NCBI GenBank assembly: GCA_024280855.1
Contig: JAJRPG010000019.1
Location: 1 to 56,303, forward strand
Origin: Planctomycetota bacterium
GTDB taxonomy: Bacteria > Planctomycetota > Phycisphaerae > UBA1845
Direction of reading: 5' to 3'
DNA length: 56,303 bases
This document shows positions 16,855 to 18,444 of this stretch, piece after piece; positions within the stretch are counted from its first letter, which is position 1, and every line of letters begins with the position of its first letter. The notes beneath the pieces are model-generated. The model saw only the letters and a program-made list of their open reading frames with translations, had not been told where the DNA came from and ran no database searches. Made by a program: the position numbers and the translations under genes.

Positions 16855-18300
16855 CTATCTCAATTTAACCGCAGATGAAGAAATGTTCAGGGGGACTGTA
16901 ATATCCTGGCGTAGATATTGGCACTGGTCACCAGTCTTTTCGCATACATAATACAAGGCGTATCCGGGCATCATAAAAACGGCTTCCTTCATTTTTGATG
17001 AAAGAGCTAATTCGATATCAACGGTTCGTTGTTCACTGCTTTCCGGCATTTGTGGGTTGCTATAGGTCCATTGGGCTTCACTTACGCTTACGCCGTTTGG
17101 CAGGGTAAACCAGACGTACAAATCTTCCGCTTCGTTATTCCACACGGCTTTTTTATCTGCAAGTCGGAAATTGATTTGCACGCGTAAGTGGCTACCGGGG
17201 CGAGCCATGGCAGGGGTTAAAATTGCTTCCATGTCAACAAGATGTAGGTTGTCGCGTGCGATCTGGCCTGATCGATCGACGTTTATCCTTAGGGCGCTTT
17301 TGTTATCCTTTTTATTGGCTTTCAATGGGCCGGCTAATTCTGATCCAGTTGGTTCTATAGGTAATTCAATGGGCGTATCGCCGCGCTTAACGATTTCGGT
17401 TCGTGCTTGTTCGACCCAATAATAAAAGTTATATGGCTTGTCGAGTCTTGGCCCGTATTGCTGAATGCGTCTACGCCAAATGTACTGATTGGGATTTATC
17501 GCCAATGCCCGGACCCATCGAATGACGGCGTTTTGGCCATCGCCGGGCTGATGTTGCGGAGATTCGAAGCGGCGGCGAAGGGCGACGCCGGATCGAAAAA
17601 AAGCTCGGCCATCCATGGGGTTTAGGGTGATGGCTCGGCGGTAGGCGTTGATGGTTTGGGTGTCTTTGTCCTTGCTATCGGAGAGGAATATCGCGTCGCC
17701 AAGGTTACGCCAAGCCGAGGCGGTTCCTTGTTGTTGGCTTAGGCTACGAAGTTGCGCGAGGGCTGGTTGATTGGCTATGTTATAATCTTTTGAAATGTTA
17801 ATGCGCGGGTAGTTTTGATTGAGAAAATCAGCCACAAATTTATCGGGCATAATCGAGGCATGTTGAACTACGCCCGACTCATCAATGGCTATCGGGATGG
17901 GGACTACAGAAACATTTAGTGTGTTGAGCGAGTCAACGAAGATAGGCCAATCTAGTTGCCGCCATTGTCGATAGAGCATAGCCCGCTCTGGATGTTGTTC
18001 TTGAACCACGCCGATGACGGTCAGGTTGTTAGCTTGTATAAAGGGGGCGACGAGTTTCTGCCACACTGGCAGTTGTCTTCTGCAGCCTGCTCACCAGGAG
18101 GCGAAGTTGATGAGCAGAACTTTTTTTCCGCGAAAATCGGATAATTTTCCGTTCTTTCCATCTAGTGTGGGCAATAGAAAATCGGGATACATTTGCCCGA
18201 CGTTTGTGCCAATTTCAGGCGGAGGGGCTTGCGAGGCACCGGACTGTTCGGCGGGGAGGACGTATAGGGCGATTAACATTGATCCGAGAATAAAACGCAT
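16855..18300 (-). CDS. Predicted selenoprotein: redoxin with UxxC motif, TPR-like region and C-terminal beta domain
   Basis: The frame starting at 18300 (AGGAG five bases upstream on the minus strand) has a signal peptide and a TlpA/AhpC-type redoxin domain: PDFLLPTLDG, LSDFRGKKVLLINFASW. It then meets a single TGA at 18093-18091 and continues in the same frame as AGCRRQLPVWQKLV for 411 more codons. Family members have Cys at this exact place (WCxxC), so the codon reads as selenocysteine 70 of 481, giving SWUAGCRRQLP. The cis-Pro loop VVPIPIAIDESG follows. Residues about 185-300 look like TPR helices. The C-terminal 150 residues are beta-rich with a Cys pair (CEKTGDQC) and faintly recall the DsbD N-terminal domain. 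A SECIS-like hairpin lies 18 bases after the TGA. The protein would act in the periplasm as a thiol oxidoreductase. The alternatives are a nonsense mutation or a sequencing error. TGA is used as a normal stop elsewhere in the window. Confidence 0.75.
18058..18072 (-). promoter_or_regulatory. Candidate bacterial SECIS hairpin
   Basis: On the minus strand CTGCCA GTG TGGCAG forms a perfect six-pair stem with a three-base loop whose first base is G. It begins 18 bases after the in-frame TGA, and its loop begins 24 bases after it. Bacterial SECIS elements are described as a stem-loop just downstream of the UGA, about 16-37 bases to a small apical loop with G among its first two bases; this fits. 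The stem is short and no bulged U is evident. Confidence 0.5.
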
Positions 18301-18444
18301 GTTGACTCCTGAATATCCATAGCTCGGCTCAAATCTTATAGTGCGGATGGGGGTATGTTGTCCAATTGGAAGCGGTTGTACTAGTTTTTTAGTTCATGGC
18401 ACTAGAAAAGCACGGGTACAAGACAGGGTTGGCGGCGAGTCATG

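Follow-up and report, generated by a model that had tools for sequence, protein, structure and literature searches.

The window analyzed here, a stretch of 56,303 nucleotides from a Planctomycetota bacterium (GenBank assembly GCA_024280855.1, contig JAJRPG010000019.1), harbors a gene whose single in-frame UGA, at codon 70, is almost certainly read as selenocysteine (Sec). A preliminary description of this DNA had called the gene a real selenoprotein, a proposal that is strongly supported by comparison: the host has the Sec machinery, the TGA is found at 108 of 108 distinct homologous sites, and a hairpin next to it covaries. The whole explanation, which we hold to be very probable, is that of an exported selenoprotein in which a TlpA/ResA-like domain, whose active site is W-Sec-Ala-Gly-Cys, is followed by TPR-like and Ig-like domains, and which probably acts as a disulfide reductase. 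SelB, together with Sec-tRNA, would read UGA70 as Sec, directed by the hairpin that lies 18 nt downstream in the coding sequence.

In agreement with the preliminary description, the minus-strand frame from 18300 to 16855 is open apart from the TGA at 18093-18091, which is preceded by 69 codons and followed by 411. It ends at a TAG (16857-16855; Table 1). An annotation stopping at the TGA had been expected to leave fragments of 69 and 403 residues; only the latter, a GTG-started piece at 16855-18066, is present in the list of open reading frames. The site reads FASW-U-AGC-RR. The TGA had been assigned to the resolving position of the redoxin motif, and this part of the description had to be reversed, as the TGA occupies the N-terminal position of CxxC in WUxGC. 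Reading of the motif in the gene and in its homologues rules out Sec as the resolving residue, and, by that reading, Sec70 is the attacking residue of WUxGC. A GGAG is found at the same place upstream of the ATG in two relatives of the genus. Residues 1-16 form the low-confidence end of the structure model. We infer that the selenoprotein is exported, which would place it in the periplasm.

Table 1. Coordinates in the window of the selenoprotein gene and of its features.
Feature	Coordinates	Strand	Basis or remark
Selenoprotein gene	16855..18300	-	481 residues with UGA as Sec; TAG stop
AGGAG, Shine-Dalgarno-like, 5' of ATG	18306..18310	-	sequence read; putative function
Probable signal peptide, about residues 1-22	18235..18300	-	read from sequence
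TlpA/ResA-like thioredoxin-fold domain, residues 31-165	17806..18210	-	Pfam and fold match
UGA codon 70, Sec, N-terminal residue of WUAGC motif	18091..18093	-	codon read and homologue conservation
Cys73, second (resolving) residue of UxxC	18082..18084	-	invariant in alignments A1 and A4
SECIS-type hairpin CUGCC-AGUGU-GGCAG, 18 nt 3' of UGA	18058..18072	-	covariation, 104 sequences
TPR-like helical domain, residues 181-305, seven helices	17386..17760	-	profile and model fold
C-terminal Ig-like beta domain resembling the DsbD N-terminal domain, residues 345-481	16858..17268	-	model and profile comparison
Cys453 of C-terminal Cys pair	16942..16944	-	invariant in A1 and A4; absent from non-Sec homologues
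Cys460 of C-terminal Cys pair	16921..16923	-	invariant in A1 and A4; pair absent from non-Sec homologues

An alignment of homologues at codon 70, which had been proposed as a check, revealed that the TGA is kept across the family. In a set of 60 genomes, composed of the window's own genome and 59 relatives, 15 matches extend over 420 query residues or more. A single in-frame TGA is present in 14 of these, each time at WUAGCR, and the remaining match, L035, is free of in-frame TGA. Matches were found in 26 of the 114 genomes of the order, 19 with the TGA type and seven with degenerate types only, and, counted by locus, the site is visible in 27 of the order's loci, 19 with TGA and eight degenerate. 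In the phylum sample, 43 of 392 genomes match, all 43 with a TGA within the matched stretch; it was located at the site itself in 29/29 fetched loci besides the window's own, the fetched loci accounting for all but 13 of these genomes. A scan of GTDB contigs with a single protein query gave nothing, and the same scan with alignment A1 gave 194 loci. The best 80 of these were kept, some of which are also phylum-sample loci, and all 80 have TGA at the site; their named phyla include Planctomycetota, Acidobacteriota, Verrucomicrobiota, Gemmatimonadota and others. In a 396-genome sample of the phylum of Acidobacteria bacterium Mor1, 19 genomes match, and 18 of 20 fetched Acidobacteriota loci show the site, with TGA in each (18 loci representing 17 distinct genes, as two are overlapping stretches of one genome). 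Over all loci read, TGA is present in 108/108 distinct sites of the form ASW-x-xGCR, where x may be any residue, of which 98 are followed by an exact QQYGP and 10 are not.

An in-frame UGA at a redox-active site that is conserved in homologues is one criterion for a selenoprotein, and this is the pattern observed in the family. Sec70, Cys73, Cys453 and Cys460 are moreover invariant together in alignments A1 and A4, and the frame is open across the UGA in nearly every member read. In one copy, from a Gemmataceae MAG (L135), the UGA is followed four codons later by a TAG; this copy is either a recent pseudogene or the result of an assembly error. The nearest named relatives belong to Phycisphaerae and Planctomycetota MAGs, with which the window's row groups in the tree. 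Phyla are clustered but mixed in this tree (changes needed: seven for Planctomycetota, one for Gemmatimonadota); the gene may have undergone horizontal transfer. No constant gene partner was found, in that no Pfam family occurs in more than three of 86 same-strand neighbors (drawn from 71 upstream and 69 downstream neighbors computed).

The hairpin reported in the preliminary description, at 18058-18072 and 18 bases from the TGA, is exactly there, as a perfect CTGCC-AGTGT-GGCAG. For the RNA alignment, 104 of the 105 distinct TGA windows were used, one with a broken frame being left out. The five stem pairs are formed in 520/520 cells of these 104 sequences, as against 93.4% in shuffles. The covariation score is 0.194, compared with 0.064 for shuffled alignments, and 0/500 shuffles score as high; sliding the partners by 1 to 3 columns yields at most 0.089. 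Two pairs covary, each to an extent that is found in 0/100,000 shuffles, while the count of pairs changed on both sides (two) is, taken alone, reached by 137/500 shuffles and not unusual. The outer pair occurs as G-C, C-G, G-U, A-U and U-G, and the third pair as G-C, G-U, A-U, C-G and U-A. The latter joins the third base of codon 77 to the first base of codon 81, and these two bases pair in 87/87 sequences with a valine codon: codon 81 begins with C or T where codon 77 is GTG, with T where it is GTA, with G where it is GTC and with A where it is GTT, as exemplified by GTC-GAC, GTT-AAC and GTA-TAC/TAT. Selection on the protein is not expected to couple a synonymous base to a neighboring residue, so it is apparently the RNA stem that selection acts on. 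A synonymous position and a neighboring codon that together keep an RNA stem make this covarying SECIS an unusually clean natural data set.

The published rules for bSECIS elements call for an apical loop of 3-9 nt, a stem of 4-16 bp, a G in the first two loop positions, a UGA-to-loop distance of 16-37 nt and a minimum free energy (MFE) of -7.5 or lower (PMC13188914, available to us in part). They were applied with our own script. The hairpin has a 5-nt loop, a 5-bp stem, 23 nt between UGA and loop, and a G at loop position 2 in 104/104 sequences, the apical loop being xG[G/U]xU in all 104. An MFE of -7.5 or lower was obtained in 104/104 sequences for the stretch from UGA to +45, and in 94/104 for the 29 nt around the hairpin, where the window's own value is -8.2. 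The window's hairpin region alone folds no better than shuffles (z -0.32), and a search of the window against Rfam yielded nothing at gathering scores. Single-sequence energy being unremarkable, the RNA evidence is therefore the covariation. The earlier proposal of a SECIS near the UGA thus gains support from compensatory changes, in a hairpin that conforms to the published rules.

Searching the genome for selA, selB, selD and a tRNA-Sec had been suggested as a further check, and all four were found in the host assembly (4.56 Mb, 112 contigs, 96% complete), of which the window is contig 43. SelA scores 569 bits, above the cut-off; SelB, 342 bits, is encoded by a gene adjoining selA on contig 102; SelD scores 368 bits; and the tRNA-Sec, at 61 bits, has the anticodon TCA (ARAGORN). 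The set of SelA, SelB, SelD and tRNA-Sec, which serves as a criterion for bacterial selenoproteins, is thus complete in the host genome. The host SelD gene has one in-frame internal TGA (L018; G000 contig 39, 6050-6973), and on this ground SelD itself is probably a selenoprotein. A second redoxin-type gene of the host, on the minus strand (L213; G000 contig 25, 16800-18600), has an in-frame TGA in the context FWGHG-U-GPC and GTGAGG-AGGCT-CCTCAC shortly 3' of it; its product is probably another selenoprotein, of the UGPC type. Short homologues with a single TGA were seen in several relatives.

The gene is also linked to the Sec trait across genomes. In the phylum sample, selA is present in 39/43 genomes with the gene and in 203/349 without it (Fisher p 8.5e-6). 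Within the order only, the figures are 16/19 and 79/95 (p 0.61, not significant), a test that is uninformative because selA is nearly universal there. The genomes with the gene in which selA is missing, 4/43 in the phylum sample and 3/19 in the order, are all multi-contig drafts, 63-92% complete. Among the genomes of loci chosen for titles naming phyla other than Planctomycetota, 26/29 have selA, and completeness is not given for the remaining three. Either selA or selB lies on the same fetched stretch as the family gene in 5/80 GTDB loci (L128, L142, L162, L181 and L185): selA and selB are found upstream of it on the same strand in L181, and selB alone in L128. In another genome (G416), selA is located 1.4 kb from the family gene, on the same strand.

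Two other explanations of the interrupted frame have to be weighed at this point. If UGA were read as another amino acid, by virtue of a changed genetic code or of simple stop-codon readthrough, the frame would likewise be open past the UGA, as it is in nearly every member read except for L135 with its early TAG. However, a reassigned code is rejected, as TGA terminates 9 of the 37 main ORFs of the window and appears to end 5 of the 14 genes of the first homologue set. The presence of the full Sec machinery and of a covarying SECIS-type hairpin, and the location of the UGA at the nucleophile position of a CxxC motif, also speak against such readings, which we regard as very improbable. Even more improbable is a sequencing error or a decaying pseudogene. 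In favor of either is that the frame is open but for a single apparent stop; both are nonetheless ruled out by the homologues, since 108 distinct sequences, taken from various assemblies and phyla, have TGA in this very position, together with invariant catalytic residues and a conserved RNA stem. Decoding of UGA70 as Sec is hence the reading retained below.

The architecture of the protein was approached with Pfam and with an AlphaFold2 model built from a 77-row alignment (pLDDT 92.0, pTM 0.90). The succession of redoxin, TPR-like and DsbD-like beta domains in the preliminary description was largely upheld, with the qualification that the likeness to DsbD lies under the Pfam cut-off. For the first domain, the Pfam matches are AhpC-TSA (6.2e-14, the best) and Redoxin (2.5e-11). 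Residues 31-165 of the model superimpose on 3gl3 with Z 15.4 (rmsd 2.0, 131 aligned), and the best fold matches are thiol-disulfide oxidoreductases of the ResA, DsbE and Etrx2 type (Z 14-15.4). The predicted fold and the position of the active site are those of a TlpA/ResA-like domain, and Pro134, in a VVP segment, is invariant. Residues 181-305 match TPR by profile and by fold, the Pfam match (TPR_11, E 0.0017) being weak and below the cut-off.

The C-terminal domain was folded alone because thioredoxin-fold and TPR chains filled the fold list of the whole model. Its 137 residues are predicted to form an Ig-like beta sandwich (pLDDT 95.2). Foldseek matched it to DsbD N-domains (6dps, E 8.1e-4; 1jpe, 1.0e-3; 1l6p, 1.5e-3), which rank 24, 29 and 48 among many Ig-like matches. 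With a second aligner, the best match is a sialidase (Z 9.9, rmsd 2.9, 110 aligned), and DsbD is not among the best 50. Profile comparison by hhalign with DsbD N-domains from four genomes of the order gave a score of 41.9 and a probability of 89.5%, with the Cys pairs aligned; the controls scored 13.6 for the reversed profile, at most 18.6 in 60 column shuffles and 26.8 with the Cys masked. The Pfam family DsbD_N (PF11412) remains below the cut-off: 5/77 members match (best E 0.005), L183 reaches 15.2 bits for a cut-off of 25, and the window's own domain has no match at E 0.1. A PDB sequence search with the C-terminal domain returned matches at chance level (best E 0.64). Based on the model and the profiles, the domain is called DsbD-N-like, not a member of DsbD_N.

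Homologues without Sec are few and degenerate. All eight (L070-L077) come from family f8 of the order; listed from L070 to L077, the residues are C, S, S, D, H, H, H and S at the Sec site and S, C, C, S, S, S, S and S at the second position, so that the lone one with Cys at the Sec site is missing the second Cys. The C-terminal domain is kept in six of them, with the Cys pair at its place in 0/6 (in L073 a Cys lies close to the second position of the pair), and in the other two (L072 and L074) the frame ends before it. Since selA is present in 8/8 of these genomes, the Sec trait itself has not been lost there. One degenerate copy (L077, in G109), with Ser at both active-site positions, is found beside a Sec-type gene in the same genome and may be a non-catalytic paralogue.

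The preliminary description had stated that relatives have Cys at the TGA position, which holds for generic TlpA/ResA-type domains but not for the family, where this is true of one of the eight non-Sec homologues. No intact Cys form was found among the family loci read, the GTDB part of which consists of the best 80 of 194. The existence of Cys homologues is the usual criterion in selenoprotein searches, and all known selenoproteins now seem to have them, according to the portion of PMC12013277 available to us. For bacterial selenoproteins this criterion is common, not defining, and at the level of the family no intact Cys homologue was seen among the loci read. The arguments appear evenly balanced as to whether the family is Sec-obligate over several phyla, with Cys being no substitute and loss of Sec leading to Ser, His, Asp or an orphan Cys and to loss of the C-terminal pair or domain. 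The family would then be an exception to the published statement at the level of orthologues, ResA and TlpA being its Cys homologues at the level of the thioredoxin fold. If it is Sec-obligate, pipelines that require Cys homologues might miss it, and if Cys cannot replace Sec, it lets one test why some enzymes need selenium.

As for function, the protein might be a periplasmic disulfide reductase, a proposal to which we give about an even chance. In this model, the Cys453/Cys460 pair would take electrons from the host DsbD and pass them to Sec70/Cys73, which would reduce the disulfide of a substrate held by the helical domain. We infer this path from the fusion of an N-domain-like module to a Sec domain, the joint invariance of the four residues and the presence of DsbD in the host. 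A DsbD-type membrane domain is encoded by the host and by 55/59 relatives, and the Cys pair is present in 123/124 Sec-type rows covering the C-terminal domain (these sets overlap). In E. coli DsbD, electrons from the thioredoxin-fold C-domain reach periplasmic partners by way of the Ig-like N-domain, which has a Cys pair on a hairpin (PMC7347389, in the part available to us).

Alternatively, the selenoprotein could be a peroxidase or another redox enzyme that works through Sec70/Cys73 alone, its C-terminal Ig-like domain and Cys pair being structural. This is conceivable but rather unlikely. The best Pfam match of the first domain is to a peroxidase-type family, the fold matches include several AhpE and Bcp peroxiredoxins (Z 13.0-13.9), and DsbD_N scores below the cut-off. 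In addition, one Sec-type member (L105) has a C-terminal domain without the Cys pair; keeping Sec in the absence of the pair, it speaks against a strict need for the latter. On the other hand, structures of the ResA, DsbE and Etrx2 type outrank the peroxiredoxins, the WUxGC motif is combined with the invariant Pro134, and the C-terminal Cys pair is absent wherever UxxC is degenerate. A disulfide reductase thus remains the preferred reading.

A 2026 review (PMC13188914) lists more than 110 prokaryotic selenoprotein families, including, in its Table 1, an entry 'Redoxin family protein, PF08534, UxxC', which is also listed in PMC9312934. The window protein resembles it in being of the UxxC redoxin type, with 44 bits to PF08534 (cut-off 26.6) and the motif UAGC, and the published label, a PF08534 match plus a UxxC motif, applies to it. 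The rows of both sources, as far as these were available, differ in that they mention neither a TPR nor a DsbD-like domain and are silent on Cys forms. This entry (HEU0032618.1, MBA3499694.1), compared by its table label only, that is, Pfam family and motif, may be the same family. In the literature searches and in the portions of papers covered (PMC13188914, PMC9312934, PMC12013277, PMC2398784 and PMC4807772), no description was found of a family with the TPR or DsbD-like architecture, nor of such a Sec-only family. Where gene calling ends a frame at UGA, the members are split, and a family present in several phyla can thereby stay hidden as fragments. When three members were scanned with the NCBIfam models, no model attained its cut-off. 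NF041054 (WAxxUGC_long, ResA-like) came closest; it describes a related thioredoxin-fold domain, but 66.1 bits falls far short of the 300 bits required, and its motif is, by its name, UGC, whereas that of the window protein is UAGC.

The thiol-disulfide oxidoreductases ResA, TlpA and CcmG share the fold and the position of the active site with the first domain. The listed structures match this domain only, whereas the window protein has Sec in place of the attacking Cys and two further domains. The N-terminal domain of DsbD (nDsbD) may be matched by the C-terminal domain in its Ig-like fold, predicted for the latter, and in a Cys pair with one member on each strand of a hairpin close to the end of the domain (PMC7347389, in the part available to us). 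The two differ in the spacing of the pair, C-x6-C in the window protein and Cys103/Cys109 in E. coli, and their sequence similarity is below the Pfam cut-off. In contrast to nDsbD, which is fused to the membrane domain of DsbD, the domain described here is fused to a thioredoxin domain, an arrangement that suggests a single-chain version of the electron relay from DsbD to its partners.
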